DNA of 49,539 nt, from NCBI GenBank assembly GCA_945871905.1, contig CAMBXL010000015.1:1-49539 (forward strand), given 5' to 3'. Position 1 is the first letter of the stretch. Every line of letters starts with the position of its first letter. The notes below the pieces were generated by a model, which was not told the origin of the DNA, did no database searches, and worked only from the letters and a program-made list of their open reading frames with translations. The DNA is from Chitinophaga pinensis. Its GTDB lineage: Bacteria > Bacteroidota > Bacteroidia > NS11-12g > UBA955. Both the position numbers and the translations under genes were made by a program. Of the stretch, positions 2,355-11,207 are shown one piece after another.

Positions 2355-3470
2355 ATGATTATCGGTGTTCCAAAAGAAATTAAAAATAACGAAAATAGAG
2401 TTGCTGTAACGCCAGCAGGTGTTAGTGATTTCGTTAGACATGGCCATACAGTTTATGTGCAACATACTGCTGGAAATGGAAGTGGTTTTAGTGATGAAGA
2501 ATATACTGAAGCTGGAGCGACTATTTTATCTACAATCGAAGAAGTATACGCTATTGCTGAAATGATTGTTAAAGTAAAAGAACCAATCGAAAGCGAATAC
2601 AAACTGATTAAAAAAGGTCAATTGTTATTTACTTATTTCCACTTTGCTAGTTACGAGCCATTAACACATGCAATGATTGCAAGTGGTGCAACTTGTTTGG
2701 CTTATGAAACTGTTGAGAAAAACGACCGTTCATTGCCATTGTTAGTGCCTATGAGCGAAGTAGCTGGTAGAATGTCTATTCAGCAAGGGGCTAAATATTT
2801 AGAAAAACCAATGGGTGGAAGAGGTATTTTATTAGGTGGTGTTCCGGGTGTTAAACCAGCAGAAGTATTGGTATTAGGCGGTGGAATTGTGGGAACACAA
2901 GCTGCTAAAATGGCTGCAGGTATGGGCGCTCAGGTTACTATCATGGATATTTCTATTCCACGTTTACGTCAGTTAGACGATATTATGCCTGCTAACGTTC
3001 AAACGATGTTTAGTAACTCATACAACATTAAAGCAGCTATCAAAACTGCCGATTTAGTGATTGGTGGCGTTTTGATTCCAGGTGCAAAAGCGCCACACTT
3101 AATTACCAAAGATAATTTAAGTTCAATGAAAAAAGGGTCTGTATTGGTGGACGTTGCCGTTGACCAAGGTGGATGCTTTGAAACAACTAAACCTACTACT
3201 CACGCTGACCCAATTTATGTAATAGATGAAGTTATTCACTATTGCGTTGCCAATATGCCAGGAGCAGTTCCTTACACTTCAACTTTAGCTTTAACAAATG
3301 CAACTTTACCGTATGCTATTCAATTGGCAAATCAAGGTTGGAAAACAGCTTGTTCAAGCAATAATGAATTGAAATTAGGTTTAAATGTGGTTGATGGAAA
3401 AGTGGTTTACAAAGCCGTTTCTGATGCTTTCAATTTACCTTACACGCCAGTTGAAGAGGTGTTAAATTAA
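2355..3470 (+). CDS. ald: alanine dehydrogenase
   Basis: This 371-residue enzyme interconverts L-alanine and pyruvate plus ammonia using NAD(H). It has the normal family length. Residues matching the active site are visible: R15 in ENRVAVTP, K75 in KVKEP and H96 in FTYFHFA. The nucleotide-binding segment VLVLGGGIVGTQAAKMAAGM lies at about residues 171-190, followed by the acidic end of the second strand in IMDIS. It is transcribed alone, divergently from pntAA, and ends at a strong terminator. PntAA belongs to the same superfamily, but this protein has the alanine-dehydrogenase N-terminus MIIGVPKEIKNNENRVAVTP and lacks any transhydrogenase partner domain. Confidence 0.95.
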   Translation: MIIGVPKEIKNNENRVAVTPAGVSDFVRHGHTVYVQHTAGNGSGFSDEEYTEAGATILSTIEEVYAIAEMIVKVKEPIESEYKLIKKGQLLFTYFHFASYEPLTHAMIASGATCLAYETVEKNDRSLPLLVPMSEVAGRMSIQQGAKYLEKPMGGRGILLGGVPGVKPAEVLVLGGGIVGTQAAKMAAGMGAQVTIMDISIPRLRQLDDIMPANVQTMFSNSYNIKAAIKTADLVIGGVLIPGAKAPHLITKDNLSSMKKGSVLVDVAVDQGGCFETTKPTTHADPIYVIDEVIHYCVANMPGAVPYTSTLALTNATLPYAIQLANQGWKTACSSNNELKLGLNVVDGKVVYKAVSDAFNLPYTPVEEVLN

Positions 3471-3488
3471 TTTTTATTTCACATAATT

Positions 3489-3521
3489 AAAAAAGGCGAT
3501 ACGTTTGTATCGCCTTTTTTT
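3489..3521. terminator. bidirectional rho-independent terminator
   Basis: A perfect 8-bp stem, GGCGATAC (3495-3502) and GTATCGCC (3507-3514), closes a GTTT loop. It is flanked by an A-run on the left and a T-run on the right. It lies between the convergent ends of ald and the cytochrome b5-like gene and can serve both strands. Confidence 0.9.
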
Positions 3522-3538
3522 GTAATAAAAATGTCATT

Positions 3539-3766
3539 TTATTCAAGTTCGCCAATTATTGTAAACTTGTGAAATACTGATTCTGAATGTGGCGCATGTG
3601 CCAGTTCTTTTGTTAAATCCTGACCAGCCCAATGCTCGTAATGCTTGCCATTGCGCCATAGTCGACTCTCAGTAACATCATAAATATTCCCTTTATATGC
3701 CACCCAAATTTCGGGTTTGTCTTGCCCATTTCGCAGAGACAGTTGTTGTAGCGTGTATTTTTTCAA
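3539..3766 (-). CDS. small cytochrome b5-like heme-binding protein
   Basis: This 75-residue protein is a stand-alone cytochrome b5-like heme/steroid-binding domain. Family features are the start YTLQQLSLRNGQDK, the core WVAYKGNIYDVTESRLWRNG and the histidine-bearing stretch K41-H42-Y-E-H45-W-A-G, with APHS at 58-61. There is no signal peptide or membrane segment, so it is probably cytoplasmic. Its redox partner is unknown. It starts at TTG (3766), preceded by AAAGGAAATAACAC on its own strand. No in-frame ATG gives a sensible product. A -7 element lies 38 bp upstream. The gene is divergent from the sensor kinase. Confidence 0.85.
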   Translation of the reverse strand: MKKYTLQQLSLRNGQDKPEIWVAYKGNIYDVTESRLWRNGKHYEHWAGQDLTKELAHAPHSESVFHKFTIIGELE

Positions 3767-3789
3767 AGTGTTATTTCCTTTTTTTGTTT

Positions 3790-3812
3790 TAAATTTGAAT
3801 TCTACAAATATA
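3790..3812. promoter_or_regulatory. face-to-face -7 promoter elements
   Basis: TAAATTTG at 3790-3797 matches the -7 consensus for the rightward kinase gene. On the minus strand TATATTTG (3812-3805) matches it for the leftward cytochrome b5-like gene. The two elements point towards each other, 7 bp apart, so both cannot easily be occupied by RNA polymerase at once. I found no convincing -33 element for either. Confidence 0.45.
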
Positions 3813-3820
3813 TTACAGAT

Positions 3821-4972
3821 TTGAAATACAGATTGTTTTTTAGTTTAATTATTGTTTACATGGCTTGTGTCTTTGGCTGGTGGTTGTATTCCTTTATTTC
3901 TTTGGTCCGTTCGGAATACACTTTAGAAAAAGAAAATTTAAACCTAAATGCTTTACTTATCAGGAAGCGTTTATCCCTCGACTTAGAATCAATGAATAAT
4001 GACTCTAAACTAAGTCCATATCAATTTTATTTAAAAAATAAATCGATGGTAGATTCTACTATTCAAAAGTTGAATGAAGAATTTTCAACAGAAACTTATT
4101 TAATTATCAAAGATACAAACGCTTCGTTTTCTGGTCTTTATGATGTAGTTGTTCATCCCAGGGAGTTTAAACAAAAAGAGAAAAGATACAACTCTAAAAA
4201 AAGAGCTTATTATTCTGAGGTCTTGTTTTTTGGCCTTTTAGTCATAGCAGGTTCCGTTTGGATTTTTACCAAATTAGAATCTTTACTCAAATTGAATAAA
4301 CTGCAAAACAACTTTCTTTTGTCCATAACACATGAGCTAAAAACCCCTTTGGCCGCTATAAAATTAAGTAGTGAAACCTTGCTAAAGAGGAATTTAGACC
4401 CTGAATTGTCTAAACAAATTGTGTCACAAACATTGAGTAATGCCGAGCGGTTGAATGATTTGATAGACAATGTTTTGTTAGCCACCAATATCGACAGTCA
4501 AACCTATCAGTTTAAAATGCAATCGCTTAATCTGTCCGATTTAATACACGAAACGGCTGATGTTATTTTTGTAGAACCTCATTTTACAGGACAGTTGAAT
4601 ATTGAAACCGACAGTCAACGAATTTATGGAGATGAATTGGCTATTAAATTGGTTCTTAGTAACATATTCAACAATGCAATTAAGTATGGTGGTGAAAATG
4701 TGGTGGTTGATGTAAAAACAGAAACAGAACGCAATACAGAAAAGTTAATTATTTCTGACAATGGTATAGGGATTGATGTGAAAGAATCGAAGCAGATATT
4801 TAAGAAATTTTACCGAGTAGGAGACGAAGAAACTCGTGAAACAAAAGGGACAGGTTTGGGGTTATACATTGTAAAAGAGATTCTTAAATACCACAAAGCG
4901 AAAATTGAAATAAAACCTAATGTGCCCAAAGGGACACAGTTTATAATAACCTTTAAAAAATTAAAAATATGA
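3821..4972 (+). CDS. two-component sensor histidine kinase
   Basis: This 383-residue inner-membrane sensor kinase has a first membrane helix at about residues 5-27 and a periplasmic region to about 130. A second helix follows at 133-151, then a dimerisation domain with phospho-accepting H171 in SITHELKTPL, and a C-terminal ATPase domain. The ATPase shows N-box NIFNNAIKYGG (281-291), G1 DNGIGID (313-319) and G2 GTGLGLYI (343-350). It lacks HAMP and PAS domains. The start is TTG at 3821. An ATG at 3860 would cut into the first membrane helix. Its last four bases overlap the response regulator. The signal is unknown, but the neighbouring uptake operon suggests nutrient sensing. Confidence 0.93.
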   Translation: MKYRLFFSLIIVYMACVFGWWLYSFISLVRSEYTLEKENLNLNALLIRKRLSLDLESMNNDSKLSPYQFYLKNKSMVDSTIQKLNEEFSTETYLIIKDTNASFSGLYDVVVHPREFKQKEKRYNSKKRAYYSEVLFFGLLVIAGSVWIFTKLESLLKLNKLQNNFLLSITHELKTPLAAIKLSSETLLKRNLDPELSKQIVSQTLSNAERLNDLIDNVLLATNIDSQTYQFKMQSLNLSDLIHETADVIFVEPHFTGQLNIETDSQRIYGDELAIKLVLSNIFNNAIKYGGENVVVDVKTETERNTEKLIISDNGIGIDVKESKQIFKKFYRVGDEETRETKGTGLGLYIVKEILKYHKAKIEIKPNVPKGTQFIITFKKLKI

Positions 4973-5673
4973 CCAAAAGAATAATGTTAGTGGAAGATGA
5001 ATCAAGTTTGCACGACTTATTAAAGTTGAATCTAGAACTTGATGGCAACAAGGTTGTTGGCGTTAAAGACGGAGAAACAGCTATTAAGAAATTCAATGAC
5101 CAGCAGTTTGATTTGGTTATTTTAGATGTAATGATACCCGGAATAAATGGTTTAAATGTATGCGAAAGTATTCGTCTGAAAGATGGCAATGTGCCTATTT
5201 TGTTTTTATCAGCCAAAAGTAGACCGGAAGACAGAATAGCAGGTTTGAAAAAAGGTGCTGATGATTATTTAACCAAACCATTCAACTTGGAAGAGTTGCA
5301 GTTAAGGGTCAATAATTTGCTAAATAGACGACAAATGCAAGGAACTACTATGGCGCAAAACCATGGTCTCAAAGAATATTCTTTTGGTCCGAATTATATC
5401 AATTTTGACAATCACGAAGCCAAAGGAGTAAATGGCACATACACTTTAACCAAAAAAGAAGTAATGTTACTTAAGTTATTAATAGAACACAAGGGCGAAA
5501 TAGTAAGCAGAGAGAAAATATTACAAACAGTTTGGGGTTATTCGGTTTATCCATCTACCAGAACGATTGATAATTTCATACTTTCATTTAGAAAATATTT
5601 TGAATTAGACCCTAAAAATCCTCAATACATTATCTCAATAAGAGGGGTTGGCTATATGCTTGATTTTAAATAA
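4969..5673 (+). CDS. OmpR/PhoB-family response regulator
   Basis: This 234-residue response regulator is the partner of the kinase just upstream, with which it overlaps by 4 bp (ATGA). The receiver domain has the acidic pair in VEDE (8-11), phospho-acceptor D53 in ILDVMIPG, S81 and K103 in TKPF. The C-terminal winged helix (about 135-234) contains TLTKKEVMLLKLL, the recognition-helix region STRTIDNFILSFRKYF and IRGVGYML. This family binds direct repeats with about an 11-bp period. Exactly such a repeat starts 6 bp after the stop codon, which points to control of the operon at 5769-10071. Confidence 0.95.
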   Translation: MTKRIMLVEDESSLHDLLKLNLELDGNKVVGVKDGETAIKKFNDQQFDLVILDVMIPGINGLNVCESIRLKDGNVPILFLSAKSRPEDRIAGLKKGADDYLTKPFNLEELQLRVNNLLNRRQMQGTTMAQNHGLKEYSFGPNYINFDNHEAKGVNGTYTLTKKEVMLLKLLIEHKGEIVSREKILQTVWGYSVYPSTRTIDNFILSFRKYFELDPKNPQYIISIRGVGYMLDFK

Positions 5674-5678
5674 GTTGC

Positions 5679-5700
5679 ATAATGTCATAATAATGTCATA
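5679..5700 (+). promoter_or_regulatory. tandem 11-bp repeat, Pho-box-like regulator site
   Basis: ATAATGTCATA occurs twice in perfect abutting tandem (5679-5689 and 5690-5700). This gives two TGTCATA half-sites separated by four AT bases, the same geometry and nearly the same sequence as an enterobacterial Pho box. It lies between the response regulator gene and the HmuY-like operon. A weak -7 match, TAATTTCG, is 36 bp downstream (5737-5744) without a -33 element, which fits an activator-dependent promoter. Confidence 0.65.
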
Positions 5701-5768
5701 TTTGAACTTATTATAAAATTAACAAGTAATAAAATGTAATTTCGCGACTACTTATAACCTCTTTAAAA

Positions 5769-7031
5769 ATGAAAAAAATAGCAAGCATATTCTTCTCTCT
5801 CTTTGTTGCTTCTTTTACAGCACAATCTCAATGTCCTGTAACGGATAGTACTCTTATGGGTGCTGGTACAGCAAATGATGTTTATTACAGTTTAAAAAAC
5901 GGGGTTGTCAAGACAGTTTCAAACAAAAATTGGCATTTGGCATTTTCGGTGATGCGTAGTCAGTTCCCAGGAAATCCATCTACCGGTGTAGCAGTTCGTT
6001 TAAATTCTGCAGGAAATAATATGAAGTTGGTAAGGTTGCCAGCAACACAAAATCCTGCAAATTGGAGAAATATTGATACCACAGGCATGTATGCTTTGCC
6101 AGAACTAATTGATTCTGATAGTACATGGTTTTCTACTTCATTTACAAAAGGTTACTCAACTGCAGATCCATTTAATTTTATTTGGGGCGCTTATAATATG
6201 TCAACAAAACATGTTGATGGTACTAATGTGTTTATCATGTTCAACAAAGCTGACAATATCTACAAAAAAGTATTTATTAAGCAAGTAACTTTTGATTCTA
6301 TGTGGAGTGTTGTTGTTTCAAACTTAGACAATACAGATTCTAATTTTGTTCAGATTAGAAAAAATGCCTTTCCAAATAGGATGTTTGTATATTACAATGC
6401 AGTCACCAAAGAGATTTTAGACAGAGAACCTGCAAATAACTCTTGGGATTTGGTTTGGACTAAATTTACCACATTTGCAGTGAGTACCCAAGGTAGTGGC
6501 TTATTCCCTCTATCAGGTGTTCTAAGCAATTTAGGTGTTCAAGTTGCAAAAAACGTTGGTAAGAAATGTGATCAAGTTTGGTTGTCAACCAAAACTGCTC
6601 AAGTGAATCCTAAAATATCTTTGATAGGTGGTGATTGGAAATTGCACATGGGTGGTGGCGTTTATTCAATAGCGGATACTTTTGTGTATTTTATTACCTC
6701 AGGAAATGTAACGTATAAAATGACTTTCAAAGGTTTTGCTGGTGGTGCTTTAGGTAAATCAACCTTTAATCTTTATGAAGCCACTTTGTCAAACAATGAA
6801 TTGTCAACTTCAGCACAAGTTAAGATTGTTCCTCATCCAGTTTCAGGTGTTTCTGAAGTTGTATCGGATGCTCAAGTTAACAACATAACAATTCAAAACT
6901 TACACGGTCAAGTGGTATTTCAAAGCGCTATGTCTTCCCAATTTGATATTTCAAATTTAGCAAGTGGCATTTATTTAATGACGGTTCAAACAGATATGGG
7001 TTTGTCGCAATTAAAACTTTTTAAACAATAG
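5769..7031 (+). CDS. HmuY-like protein with T9SS sorting domain
   Basis: This 420-residue secreted protein has a signal peptide (about residues 1-20, ending TAQSQ) and two HmuY-like units. The first has NDVYYSLKNG and NWHLAF (37-59). The second has MFVYYNAVTKE and SWDLVW (205-230) and closes with VTYKMTFKGF (314-323). HmuY proteins are cell-surface hemophores that hand heme to a TonB receptor. The C-terminal 70 residues, from VKIVPHPVSG to SQLKLFKQ, form a T9SS type A sorting domain, so the protein should be released or surface-anchored through T9SS. The receptor gene follows after 20 bp. The ligand is not shown by the sequence. Heme is the family-based guess. Confidence 0.78.
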   Translation: MKKIASIFFSLFVASFTAQSQCPVTDSTLMGAGTANDVYYSLKNGVVKTVSNKNWHLAFSVMRSQFPGNPSTGVAVRLNSAGNNMKLVRLPATQNPANWRNIDTTGMYALPELIDSDSTWFSTSFTKGYSTADPFNFIWGAYNMSTKHVDGTNVFIMFNKADNIYKKVFIKQVTFDSMWSVVVSNLDNTDSNFVQIRKNAFPNRMFVYYNAVTKEILDREPANNSWDLVWTKFTTFAVSTQGSGLFPLSGVLSNLGVQVAKNVGKKCDQVWLSTKTAQVNPKISLIGGDWKLHMGGGVYSIADTFVYFITSGNVTYKMTFKGFAGGALGKSTFNLYEATLSNNELSTSAQVKIVPHPVSGVSEVVSDAQVNNITIQNLHGQVVFQSAMSSQFDISNLASGIYLMTVQTDMGLSQLKLFKQ

Positions 7032-7051
7032 TATTCTTTTTCAATTAAAGC

Positions 7052-9052
7052 TTGAACTTATTTAAATACATATCACTGATTGTTTTGTTTTTTTGCCAAG
7101 CTCACCTTAGAGCTCAGGTTGAAGACTCTACTATGTTTGATGGATATGTCGTTACAGCTGAAATTCAACCAACAAAATCTTCTGAATCGGTTCAGAATAT
7201 CAGATTAATTTCCCAAAAAACAATTGAAAAACAAGGGGCAGTAAATCTAAGCGACCTCCTTTCCAAAGAAATGAATATCAGAGTTGGAAATGATAATATT
7301 CTTGGATCTTCATTGAGTTTGCAAGGAATAAGTGGTCAAAATATTAAAATTTTGTTAGATGGGGTGCCTTTGATTGGGAGAGAAAATGGAAACATTGACC
7401 TTAGTCAAATCAACTTATCGAACATTGAAAAAATAGAAATCATTGAAGGGCCACTTTCAGTTATTTATGGAACAGATGCCTTAGGTGGAGTTATAAATTT
7501 AATTTCCAAAAAAATAACATTAAATAAGAATTCGCTTGTCAATGCACAATCCTATTATGAATCTATAGGGCATTACAATTTTGGAGGTGGTGCTATATTT
7601 AAGTTAAACAATGTAAATATTACGGCTAACTTAAACCGTAACTTTTTTGCAGGTTACAGTCCCGATAATACAAGAGTCATGTTATGGAAACCCAAGCAAC
7701 AAGTATTTGGCAGTTTTGGAATTCATTCCGATGTGAGTAAGAAAATTAGGGTGCGATTTAAAACAGATGTTTTTAGTGAAAAAATTGAGAACAGAGGAGC
7801 TCCCGTAATTAATCATCTTGAAGCTTATGCTTTTGACGAATACTATCTAACCAACAGAAGTATAACCTCTTTGGATATTTCATACAAACAAGATGTTAGA
7901 ACCAATTGGAATGTATTGTCCTCTTTTGGTTTTTATCAACGAGACAAAATTACTTACAGAAAAAATTTAGTTAATTTGTTTTCTGATGTAATTCCAACAC
8001 AAGAGGCCAATAGTTCAACTTCTTTTCTGAATTTTATGAGTCGTGGTACTTACAGTAAAATAACAAGTAAGGTTTTTAATTATCAGTTTGGGTATGACAT
8101 AAATGTTAATAGTGCTTTTGGTACCAGAATAGTAAGTGAAAAAGGAAAGATGAATGATTTTGCGGTTTTCTCTAGCTTCGAATATAAACCCAATAAATAC
8201 TTTACACTAAAGCCAGGAATTAGGGCAACATACAACAGTATTTATCCCGCACCATTAGTTCCATCAATTCAATTTCAATACAGTCGTTTTAAAAATTTGA
8301 CAATGAAATATTCCTACGGTAGAGGCTTTAGGGCCCCATCACTTAAAGAGTTATTCTTGGATTTTGTCGACTTTAATCACAATATTACAGGCAATGAAAA
8401 TTTGAAGTCTGAAATGTCTGACAATCAAAATTTAACATTTAAATACAAGTGGAAACACAAATCAAAAAAAGTCAGTTTTATAGATTTGGCTTTTTTTCAC
8501 AACAGTATTTACAACCAAATTGCTATTGTAGCTGTTAGCCCAATTGACCTAACATACACTTATCAAAATATTGATAATTTTTACTCAAAAGGCGCATCAT
8601 TGAATGTTTCATCAAAAATCAAAGATTTAAGATACACCTTAGGAGCTTCCTACATTGGCGTTTACAATAATGCTTTTGATGTATTAAATAATAATAAGTT
8701 TTTATATTCCCCTGAATTAAGAGCACAACTTAGTTACTCACTCAAAATAAAAGACCATGAGCCTGTTTCTTTGTCGCTGTTTTATAAATACAATGGTGTT
8801 ATGAATGGTTTTGCCTTTAATGAAACCAGAGATATAGTAGCAACCAAAATAGCCGCTTTTAATATTTTAGACGTGACCGCTAACAGAACTTTTTGGGACA
8901 AAAAACTAAGTTTGACATTTGGTGTAAAAAACCTACTCAATATCACCAATGTATTGGCAACAGGAAATACTTCTGTGCACAGTGGTGGGTCTAATTCAAT
9001 GCCAATTTCAGTAGGTCGTTCACTGTTTGTTCAATTATTACTAAAAATATAA
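7052..9052 (+). CDS. TonB-dependent outer-membrane receptor (HmuR-like role)
   Basis: This 666-residue outer-membrane receptor has a signal peptide ending LRAQ (about residue 22) and a TonB-box-like segment DGYVVTAEI near 29-37. The plug domain (about 50-160) contains LQGISGQNIKILLDGVPL and IEIIEGPLSVIYGTDALGGVINLI. A 22-strand-type barrel follows, with the receptor signature YSYGRGFRAPSLKELF near 424-439. It imports a ligand using TonB energy. The start is TTG at 7052, the only start that keeps the signal peptide. It lies between two HmuY-like genes and overlaps the next by one base (TAATG), so the three form an operon. Substrate is inferred as heme or a similar iron source. Confidence 0.9.
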   Translation: MNLFKYISLIVLFFCQAHLRAQVEDSTMFDGYVVTAEIQPTKSSESVQNIRLISQKTIEKQGAVNLSDLLSKEMNIRVGNDNILGSSLSLQGISGQNIKILLDGVPLIGRENGNIDLSQINLSNIEKIEIIEGPLSVIYGTDALGGVINLISKKITLNKNSLVNAQSYYESIGHYNFGGGAIFKLNNVNITANLNRNFFAGYSPDNTRVMLWKPKQQVFGSFGIHSDVSKKIRVRFKTDVFSEKIENRGAPVINHLEAYAFDEYYLTNRSITSLDISYKQDVRTNWNVLSSFGFYQRDKITYRKNLVNLFSDVIPTQEANSSTSFLNFMSRGTYSKITSKVFNYQFGYDINVNSAFGTRIVSEKGKMNDFAVFSSFEYKPNKYFTLKPGIRATYNSIYPAPLVPSIQFQYSRFKNLTMKYSYGRGFRAPSLKELFLDFVDFNHNITGNENLKSEMSDNQNLTFKYKWKHKSKKVSFIDLAFFHNSIYNQIAIVAVSPIDLTYTYQNIDNFYSKGASLNVSSKIKDLRYTLGASYIGVYNNAFDVLNNNKFLYSPELRAQLSYSLKIKDHEPVSLSLFYKYNGVMNGFAFNETRDIVATKIAAFNILDVTANRTFWDKKLSLTFGVKNLLNITNVLATGNTSVHSGGSNSMPISVGRSLFVQLLLKI

Positions 9053-10071
9053 TGAGAATTCTCCTAATTATAAGTATTGTTTTTCTAAGTTCATGTTTCA
9101 AAAAGGAAAAGCCTTATGAATTACCTATTGGTGAGTCCAATATTACATCGTTTCATTTAGGTGATAATTATGAAAATCAAATCTTTTTTGATTTGGGGAC
9201 TAATACTTTCCAAACCAAGGATTTATTCGATTGGGACTTAAGATTTGAAACCGGAGAAAATCAATTTGGTGTTTTTATTAATAATGGTAAAGATATTAGA
9301 GTTAGAAAAACCAATTTGTTCAATTTAGACGAGCCCTTGACTTTAGATACCAGTTATTTAAAATCTTTGCCAGTTTTGATAGATGAGCCCGAAGGAAAAG
9401 TAGACAAGTCTGCGATTGGAGATTGGCGAACATTTTTAGCTCCAGGGTCTTCTAAACCAGGTATTTATATTATTGAGTTGATTGATCAAGTGGGTTGGGA
9501 TAGGTTTGTAAGAATGCAGATATTGGATGTGAATGACACGCAGTATGTTTGCAAGTTTTCGCCAATGGTATTCAATAATAAATTGGTTACCGAATGGAAT
9601 GAATTAACCTATATTCCTAAACAAAGTAATCAAAATTTCACTTATTTCTCTTTCAAGTCGGGAGGCTATGTTTTGAATAATGCCGAGCCAGACAAGCGAA
9701 CTTGGGATTTAGAATTCACCAAATACAAACATATCTTTTACAATTATGGCCCCAATCCATTTCCGTATTTGGTTACCGGCGTTTTGAGTAATCCTAACAA
9801 TGTAACAGTTGCAATAGATTCTGTTAGTAATTTCAATGATATAAACAGTACTTCTATCAGTAAATACCAGTTTACAAGCAATCGTAATGGTGTTGGATTT
9901 GAATGGAAATCATTTGATTTTAATACAAGTTTTATATTTACAGTTAAGCCCAATTTAACTTACATTATTAAGGATACCGACGATAAATTATACAAACTAA
10001 GATTTATCGATTTTTACAACGAACAACGTGTAAAGGGTTACCCTAAGTTTGAATTTATTTTAATAAAATAG
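9052..10071 (+). CDS. HmuY-like surface lipoprotein
   Basis: This 339-residue lipoprotein has a signal peptide with lipobox L-S-S-C15. Like the first gene of the operon it contains two HmuY-like units. Unit one has NQIFFDLGTN with W61-D-L-R-F. Unit two has FTYFSFKSGG with W218-D-L-E-F. The end, FIFTVKPNLTYIIKD then YKLRFIDFYNEQ, follows the pattern of the HmuY C-terminus. It probably sits on the outer membrane next to the TonB receptor as a ligand capture or transfer protein. The start overlaps the receptor stop by one base. It differs from its sister in anchoring (lipid instead of T9SS sorting domain). Confidence 0.78.
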   Translation: MRILLIISIVFLSSCFKKEKPYELPIGESNITSFHLGDNYENQIFFDLGTNTFQTKDLFDWDLRFETGENQFGVFINNGKDIRVRKTNLFNLDEPLTLDTSYLKSLPVLIDEPEGKVDKSAIGDWRTFLAPGSSKPGIYIIELIDQVGWDRFVRMQILDVNDTQYVCKFSPMVFNNKLVTEWNELTYIPKQSNQNFTYFSFKSGGYVLNNAEPDKRTWDLEFTKYKHIFYNYGPNPFPYLVTGVLSNPNNVTVAIDSVSNFNDINSTSISKYQFTSNRNGVGFEWKSFDFNTSFIFTVKPNLTYIIKDTDDKLYKLRFIDFYNEQRVKGYPKFEFILIK

Positions 10072-10187
10072 AGTAATATAAAAGGGATTTAAGTTTTTTA
10101 TCATTCATTTAGTCGATTATATAGGACATTTGAAGAGAAAAAAATCTGTTAAAGTTGCTAAATTTAAGCATCTTTGCAAGTCAAATC

Positions 10188-11207
10188 ATGTCAGCAGGCA
10201 CAGCACAGTCCATTTTAAGTTATTTAGGGAGTTTTACAAATCCTAAAATCATCATTACTACGCATCATAAACCAGATGCAGATGCAATGGGTTCTTCGCT
10301 TGGGTTGTATCATTTTTTGAAATATTTAGGTTTTCAACCTACTGTAATTTCTCCAACTGATTTTGCACACAATTTACATTGGATGCCTCAAGCTGAATTG
10401 GTAATAAACTACGAAGAGCAAACAGAAAAATGCAAACAACTGGTTTCTGAAGCTGATTTGGTATTTTGTTTGGATTTTAATGATTTAAGCAGAATTAATG
10501 ATATGGGTATAGATGTAAAAGCCTCAAGAGCTAAAACCGTTTTAATCGACCATCATCAATATCCATCCAATTTTGAAGATTTTACCTATTGGGATGATAC
10601 TGCAAGTAGTACATGTGAATTGGTTTACAGGTTGATACAAGATTTAAATCAAACCCATTTGGTGGATGCCTCAATAGCTACTTGTTTATACACAGGTATT
10701 ATGGCTGACACGGGTTCATTTAAGTACAGTAATTGCTCTGGTTCTACTCACCGTACTATTGCTGATTTAATTGACAAAGGGGCGAATCATGTGGAAATAA
10801 ACGACCGTTTTTATGATAATTTTTCTGAACAAAGAGTCCGTTTTATAGGCTATGCAATTAGTGAAAAAATGGAGGTTTTGAGAGCGTTTAACACAGTTTT
10901 AATTGTAATAAATAAGGAAGAGTTAGAACGTTTTCAGCTTACAACCGGCGATACAGAAGGTTTGGTAAATTATGGTTTAAGTATCAAAGGGATTAAGTTT
11001 GCGGTTTTAATTATTGACAGAACAAAAATGGTTAAAATGAGCTTCAGAAGTAAAGGTAATTTTGGGGTCAATTTGTTTGCCAAAAAATACTTTAATGGAG
11101 GTGGTCATTTTTACGCAGCTGGAGGAAATAGCAATGATACATTGGAACACACTGTTGTTAAATTTAAACAAGAATTAGTAAAATATAAAGATGAACTCAA
11201 TGCCTAG
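10188..11207 (+). CDS. nrnA: DHH-family oligoribonuclease / pAp phosphatase (NrnA-like)
   Basis: This 339-residue cytoplasmic phosphoesterase degrades short oligoribonucleotides and, in many bacteria, 3'-phosphoadenosine 5'-phosphate. The DHH domain shows TTHHKPDADAMGSSLG near residues 24-39 and IDHH at 120-123. ADTGSF at about 173-178 and the DHHA1-domain motif GGGHFYAAGG near the end complete the family set. The frame is open from a TTG at 10155, but CATCTTTG (10169-10176) resembles a -7 promoter element, so the ATG at 10188 is the better start. It opens the seven-gene operon that runs to 17903 and overlaps the next gene by 17 bp. Confidence 0.9.
   Translation: MSAGTAQSILSYLGSFTNPKIIITTHHKPDADAMGSSLGLYHFLKYLGFQPTVISPTDFAHNLHWMPQAELVINYEEQTEKCKQLVSEADLVFCLDFNDLSRINDMGIDVKASRAKTVLIDHHQYPSNFEDFTYWDDTASSTCELVYRLIQDLNQTHLVDASIATCLYTGIMADTGSFKYSNCSGSTHRTIADLIDKGANHVEINDRFYDNFSEQRVRFIGYAISEKMEVLRAFNTVLIVINKEELERFQLTTGDTEGLVNYGLSIKGIKFAVLIIDRTKMVKMSFRSKGNFGVNLFAKKYFNGGGHFYAAGGNSNDTLEHTVVKFKQELVKYKDELNA

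Follow-up and report, generated by a model that had tools for sequence, protein, structure and literature searches.

A perfect tandem direct repeat of an 11-bp unit, ATAATGTCATA, lies between an OmpR/PhoB-family response regulator gene and a three-gene operon for HmuY-like proteins and a TonB-dependent receptor in contig CAMBXL010000015.1 of assembly GCA_945871905.1, whose 49,539-nucleotide stretch, analysed here as a whole, we refer to as the window. We consider it probable (about 0.65) that this repeat is a binding site of an OmpR-type regulator, most likely the upstream neighbour with its kinase, that the same site marks a dispersed set of surface genes, and that the kinase/regulator pair coordinates display and import at the outer surface. 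An earlier note on the window had presented regulator, repeat and operon as one regulatory unit. A conserved site is indeed kept at this junction, but the unit was drawn too narrowly, as a dispersed and mostly secreted or outer-membrane gene set carries the site; in our judgement what is regulated is a surface regulon found across the family rather than one heme or phosphate operon. As to the kind of site, the earlier interpretation stands, and it is probably right about the regulator too.

The two copies of the repeat match without a mismatch, as previously described. The regulator stop codon occupies 5671-5673, leaving 5 bases to the repeat instead of the 6 bp first given, and the distance of 68 bases from the end of the repeat to the ATG at 5769 stands. 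TAnnTTTG at -7 is the promoter element of the primary sigma factor in Bacteroidota, and the window has a -7-like element, TAATTTCG, one base off this motif, in agreement with its description as weak. The pattern TGTCATA-N4-TGTCATA, proposed for a genome scan, has a single occurrence in the window, which is also its only one in the 2.5 Mb genome, with no occurrence of the reversed control pattern, and the core site TGTCAT-N5-TGTCAT is found seven times in the genome against none for its reversed control. TGTCAT pairs with other spacers (0-13) show no favoured spacing in a 400 kb sample of the genome, in which counts are 0-1 and exact N5 sites also number 0, and an Rfam scan of 3400-10200 returned nothing at gathering scores.

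Counts in other genomes reveal how widely the site is distributed. Exact sites number 56, against 1 for the control, in 17 genomes of the genus, and 25 against 3 in 20 other genomes of the same family (f1). Of the 56 in the genus, 37 are followed at 20-165 bases by a gene with a signal peptide, as called by a crude hydrophobicity rule of our own rather than a trained predictor, and one of these 37 targets (L166, ComF-like) is doubtful. The same procedure applied to 1500 random positions from a 400 kb sample of this genome yielded 39 signal-peptide genes, 70 other frames, 1278 positions in coding sequence and 113 with no target; 39/1500 is the like-for-like figure, an earlier background of 55/168 having come from a differing procedure. 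Among positions with a frame downstream only, 37 of 43 sites precede a signal-peptide gene compared with 39 of 109 random positions (p = 1e-8, a value that is too small since orthologous sites do not count as independent). Of 54 site-gene pairs that include a signal peptide, 23 have TAnnTTTG after the site, compared with a shuffled mean of 4.0.

The operon follows the regulator in 15 of the 17 genus genomes, and none of these 15 junctions departs from the repeat by more than one mismatch or lacks a TAnnTTTG-like element. Loss of the repeat upstream of orthologous operons that retain the kinase/regulator pair, which the earlier note had named as grounds for giving up its proposal, is thus not what we find. 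Regulator and operon are both present in genome G016, albeit on different contigs, and G002 (82% complete) has no good match to either. When the genus junctions other than those of G004 and G012 are aligned (13 of 15), 15 columns are invariant, of which 13 fall within the repeat halves (T13-A17, G25, T26, A28) or the -7 box (T67, A68, T71, T72, G74); T21 is in the spacer and C75 adjoins the box, so that the repeat including its spacer accounts for 9 of the 15.

Homologues of the first operon gene were compared more widely, and the best site upstream of each of the 22 examined has no mismatch in 13 cases, one in 8 and two in 1, where shuffled upstreams would be expected to give 0.01 with no mismatch and 0.04 with one (0.05 together). 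Two of these entries, G019 and G108, are biased, having joined the set via the motif search, and the G004 and G010 sites were taken from junction sequences, apart from the upstream scan used for the others. G018, G022, G025 and G035 were chosen by receptor similarity alone, lower-scoring receptor matches in other genomes being left out, and all four have the site, two exactly and two with one mismatch. Regulator and operon are adjacent in G022 and on separate contigs in G018, G025 and G035; these three operons keep the site all the same, so adjacency does not explain its presence. The regulator loci of G018, G025, G035 and G019 contain no site with up to one mismatch, and the site therefore travels with the target. 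A repeat arising by chance and without function would sit well with the loose matches in the window (up to three mismatches), which are no more frequent than chance predicts (7 against 8.15), but it is refuted by the conservation in 22 of 22 upstreams and the genus counts of 56 against 1, which leave it next to no probability; the observation itself is sound.

In 19 of the 22 first-gene upstreams there is a perfect TAnnTTTG beyond the site, 36-39 bases away in 13 of the 19 and 47-48 in four, with two reversed sites at 32 and 12 bases. The distances in G008 and G013 differ by 11 bases, approximately one helical turn.

Six of the seven exact sites in this genome are intergenic and one is in coding sequence. 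Five of the six precede a gene with a type IX secretion system (T9SS) sorting tail, which about 5.5% of genes have (p = 3e-6); the background is 103 over-cut-off tails in an estimated 1860 genes, gene totals being extrapolated from frames of at least 100 amino acids (aa) in 400 kb. The targets are listed in Table 1, among them a row of receptor, DUF5074 and periplasmic-binding genes that resembles the BtuB-BtuG-BtuF cobalamin set. One-mismatch sites add further targets, the remaining ones being inside coding sequence or without a clear target. The same kinds of gene recur behind sites elsewhere: IgGFc-binding proteins behind exact sites in four genomes of four genera (this one, G028, G017 and G019), arylsulfotransferase-like proteins in two genera (this genome and G028), TonB in G108 and G099, and first-gene homologues in G019, G025, G035 and G108 (exact) and G018 (one mismatch). 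An M43-type protease follows the site in five genus genomes, with a remote homologue in G108 (30% identity).

Several features of these loci are recorded here in their own right. The site is reversed relative to the M43-type protease gene in all five genomes (one family by blastp), and aroC stands on its other side in the three loci with flank read. In G008, three TGTCAT half-sites at 11-base steps precede a large secreted protein (L070, 1501-1528), and a similar triple with one imperfect half follows the regulator in G016 (L087). An uncharacterised, blastp-linked family whose members start with PCHENWxxM...HCxxCxKxVxDF occurs behind the site in six genomes, one member having a sub-cut-off TonB_C match.

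In the mechanism that we propose, the regulator, once phosphorylated, would occupy the two TGTCAT half-sites in head-to-tail fashion, some 50-65 bases before a putative transcription start, and would activate a promoter in which a Bacteroidota -7 element is present but a good -33 box is lacking. This site also precedes dispersed genes for selected T9SS cargo (protease, adhesin-like and sulfotransferase-like proteins), TonB-dependent receptors and surface lipoproteins, and weaker sites in this genome or exact ones in relatives extend the set to TonB/ExbB/ExbD and PorZ. Through these genes the two-component pair would coordinate display and import at the outer surface, and its role is probably to adjust the cell surface, not the supply of phosphate. 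Our data show a conserved site, the promoter in which it stands, its repeated presence before such genes in several genera and the lack of PhoU; that the window regulator binds it, that the effect is activation and not repression, where transcription starts and what the system does are inferred.

Two proteins with a Trans_reg_C domain were found in a search of this genome, the window regulator and one encoded on contig 12. By its receiver and winged-helix Trans_reg_C domains the window regulator belongs to the OmpR/PhoB family, and it falls below the cut-offs of these more specific models: 168 of 270 and 166 of 296 bits for PhoB, 182 of 340 for YycF (WalR) and 161 of 370 for RprY (of RprXY in Bacteroides). 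Its recognition helix, RTIDNFILSFRKYFE, is almost unchanged among relatives, and its residues are unlike those of PhoB. The best argument for this local regulator, albeit a circumstantial one, is that its neighbour carries the site even when that neighbour is another gene. In all 16 genus genomes where sequence 3' of the window-type regulator is available, the regulator gene is followed by a site; in G016 the next gene is a different secreted one, preceded by two overlapping one-mismatch sites, and a homologue of this neighbour in G003 (50% identity; Reeler/PKD domains) has an exact site at another locus.

The window regulator is probably the best candidate binder, and the contig-12 regulator is a serious rival. 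Were the latter to bind the repeat, the target operon would merely happen to adjoin the window regulator. The best model for the contig-12 protein is PhoB TIGR02154 (232 bits, under the cut-off of 296), and its recognition helix, RTIDVHIRKIREKL, is similar to that of E. coli PhoB. The site, moreover, fits the Pho box consensus (PMC3465305). The 7 kb stretch around the contig-12 regulator, 1.4 kb of it upstream, is nevertheless without a site at up to two mismatches, and the succession of window-type regulator and site-bearing gene in all 16 genomes, including G016 with its different neighbour, argues for the local protein; in Flavobacteriia, PhoP is reported to bind a different motif, TTTAACA (PMC9603813), orthology to either regulator not being assumed. 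We regard binding by the contig-12 regulator as unlikely, at about one chance in five. A direct-repeat-binding factor of a non-OmpR class would be a more distant choice; OmpR-type binding is predicted from the sequence, which leaves room for such a factor, but head-to-tail 6-mers with an 11-base period are the geometry of VicR/WalR (PMC4168254) and PhoB (PMC3465305), and we give the idea little credence.

The earlier note had asked whether the operon responds to phosphate or to iron/heme, and of these the phosphate answer has lost ground. The site has the tandem TGTCA box with 11-base period that characterises a Pho regulon. It resembles the E. coli Pho box consensus, and the pstS site in the same source contains TGTCATAAAACTGTCAT, the exact form present in G002, G013 and G019 (PMC3465305). 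These likenesses would suit a true Pho regulon in which the operon and its partners answer phosphate starvation via PhoR/PhoB, but the PhoU domain has no match in this 99.7% complete genome, compared with 13 of 14 control genomes that are positive, and the genes behind exact sites are mostly secreted or surface genes. No pst or phosphatase gene was recognised among the genes behind exact sites, of which only part was Pfam-scanned and where Pst itself was not searched for. Phosphate control is disfavoured because PhoU is absent and the window regulator lies far under the PhoB cut-offs; with this gene content, a Pho regulon was set aside as very improbable. A private heme or iron switch for the window operon alone, run locally by the neighbouring pair, would account for the HmuY domain, the sub-cut-off heme-receptor similarity of the receptor and the linkage of regulator and operon in 15 of 17 genus genomes, but many unrelated secreted genes have sites and unlinked operons keep theirs, and we think such a switch hardly probable.

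Several results weigh against a surface regulon run by the window regulator. The regulator and its recognition helix are kept in Saprospiraceae and Sphingobacteriales, where the site is not enriched (11 exact sites against a control of 8 in 23 of 24 outgroup genomes), and exact sites are likewise not enriched in a second family, f2 (9 against 10 in 22 genomes); the only outgroup genome to stand out is G108, a metagenome-assembled genome labelled Chitinophaga pinensis, with 5 against 0. The 3' gap of the regulator is without a site (up to one mismatch) in all 19 other family-f1 regulator loci fetched, and the two sites found there sit in the kinase gene. On the same PhoB model the contig-12 regulator scores higher than the window regulator (232 against 166 bits), and the site is Pho-box-like. 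Among the 56 genus sites, those not upstream of a signal-peptide gene are 8 in coding sequence, 6 ahead of other frames and 5 lacking a target. Helical phasing of the site-to--7 distance reached p = 0.057 in the first set of 14 independent values; with four further values from this genome it reaches p = 0.006 at a period of 10.5, which is suggestive only, as these values were added after the first result was seen. Finally, a site with up to two mismatches is present in 5 of 70 further T9SS cargo upstreams (shuffled expectation 1.0; 76 scanned minus 6 without a usable start, some overlapping, with exact-site cargo genes excluded) and in 4 of 167 upstreams of sampled genes, made up of 2 of 104 where the gene lacks a signal peptide and 2 of 63 where it has one, and including the PorZ site. 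Most cargo genes are thus without a site, only a minority being covered, and a regulon of all T9SS cargo was rejected because weak sites were not found before most of them.

The surface regulon that we favour shares features with several known systems. With the Pho box and PhoB regulon of E. coli it has in common two TGTCAT-type half-sites at an 11-base period upstream of the promoter, and an OmpR/PhoB-family regulator with a PhoR-like kinase, the geometry and likeness put forward in the earlier note and upheld here by a conserved direct repeat, a -7 element in the promoter and the match to the E. coli consensus (PMC3465305). It differs in its mostly secreted or surface targets, the lack of PhoU, a regulator far under the PhoB cut-offs and a Bacteroidota -7 promoter element. 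The WalR/VicR box of Bacillota, TGTWAH-N5-TGTWAH, has the same 6-5-6 direct-repeat geometry, occurs in both orientations and likewise serves an envelope regulon; both halves of our site have C for W, which is also the only departure from the modified VicR form TGTWAHA-N4-TGTWAHA (PMC4168254). The phylum differs, however, and the predicted targets here are T9SS and TonB genes, not autolysins. In S. aureus WalR, site position and not orientation is reported to determine the mode of regulation (PMC10746227), which fits the two site orientations seen here.

PorX, of the PorXY-SigP system of Porphyromonas gingivalis, has a PglZ domain, and the window regulator has Trans_reg_C instead; the PglZ protein of this genome is a separate gene on contig 4. 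PorXY-SigP is also a two-component system tied to type IX secretion, but PorX acts with an extracytoplasmic function sigma factor, whereas the regulator here is OmpR-type and its predicted targets are mainly cargo and receptors. PorX/PorY are reported to respond to hemin (PMC8265659), and Riemerella PhoP, which binds a motif around TTTAACA (PMC9603813), has a TonB-dependent receptor among its reported direct targets (PMC9603813, PMC5399024). In the titles and abstract starts of the open-licence literature we found no report matching an OmpR-type T9SS regulon or this motif in Bacteroidetes, and for two-component control of T9SS genes only PorXY-SigP of P. gingivalis and relatives. The contig-4 PglZ protein of this genome (L320, 802-2361) resembles PorX and has, judged by eye, an N-terminus like a receiver domain.

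Our broadest proposal is that an OmpR-type two-component system unrelated to PorXY directly coordinates surface transcription via a Pho-box-like repeat, with selected T9SS cargo, PorZ, TonB-dependent receptors and the TonB/ExbBD motor as jointly activated targets across a whole family of Bacteroidota; this is tentative, and we rate it a little short of an even chance. If true, a Pho-type box would serve surface architecture instead of phosphate. With a conserved site, a predicted regulator and a list of targets, experiments could directly address how T9SS cargo and TonB uptake are controlled in a further branch of the Bacteroidota, and a Pho-box look-alike alone is no proof of phosphate control.

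The earlier note had also called the operon HmuY-like. It does contain a HmuY domain (PF14064), but in the third gene (51.8 bits, cut-off 27), and the first gene has no PF14064 match. The first and third proteins are distant paralogues (hhalign probability 99.6), and because of this the operon would be predicted to export two HmuY-like proteins, one of them via the T9SS. The top NCBIfam scores of the receptor are those of a TonB-hemin and a B12 receptor, both under cut-off. Similarity of the third protein to HmuY is remote: its profile matches HmuY 3h8t with E = 7.8e-5, and for a structure model (predicted local distance difference test, pLDDT, 76) Foldseek ranks HmuY-family entries highest, led by PinO and BF2707, at low template modelling scores. 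The first-gene model was unusable (pLDDT 41.7). Such remote similarity does not amount to heme binding by these proteins. HmuY/HmuR heme uptake likewise has a TonB-dependent receptor adjoining a HmuY-family protein; the present operon differs in its two HmuY-like proteins, one T9SS-tailed, and in this remoteness. For the kinase, the top NCBIfam scores are PnpS, PhoR and WalK, every one far under cut-off, and all 19 other family-f1 regulator loci fetched have a kinase homologue next to the regulator.

Table 1. Features of the window and genes associated with the site in this genome.
Feature	Position	Strand	Basis or context
Sensor histidine kinase, HisKA + HATPase_c, 383 aa from TTG start	3821..4972	+	Pfam PF00512/PF02518 over cut-off
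OmpR/PhoB-family response regulator, candidate binder of repeat	4969..5673	+	Pfam Response_reg + Trans_reg_C over cut-off
Tandem direct repeat ATAATGTCATA x2	5679-5689 + 5690-5700	+	Perfect copies, no mismatch
Core site TGTCAT-N5-TGTCAT	5683-5699	+	Inside tandem repeat 5679-5700
-7-like element TAATTTCG	5737-5744	+	1 mismatch to TAnnTTTG; 37 bases 3' of core site
First operon gene, T9SS-tailed paralogue, HmuY-like	5769..7031	+	PF18962 over cut-off
TonB-dependent receptor	7052..9052	+	PF07715/PF00593
HmuY-family protein, lipoprotein by N-terminal sequence only	9052..10071	+	PF14064 over cut-off
Exact-site target: window operon	starting 5769		This genome
Exact-site target: TonB-dependent receptor, then DUF5074 and periplasmic-binding genes	L295 126-4117, contig 8		This genome
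Exact-site target: IgGFc-binding/PKD/CHU_C protein, 1348 aa			This genome
Exact-site target: PKD protein, about 1900 aa			This genome
Exact-site target: arylsulfotransferase-like protein, 879 aa			This genome
Exact-site target: M43 protease, 695 aa, site reversed			This genome
One-mismatch site before ExbB...ExbD-ExbD cluster, 137 bases			This genome
One-mismatch site between PorZ and divergent DUF2279 gene			This genome
One-mismatch site before large secreted protein			This genome
One-mismatch site before 316-aa protein			This genome; family recurs behind sites in other genomes

Elsewhere in the window, a short frame at 3541-3768 on the minus strand, cytochrome b5-like by eye, lies between an alanine-dehydrogenase-like gene and the kinase gene. 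Two small overlapping genes at 367-970, also on the minus strand, have by eye the look of a HepT/MntA-type toxin-antitoxin pair and stand between apparent PntA transhydrogenase subunit genes (974-2086 and 1-303).

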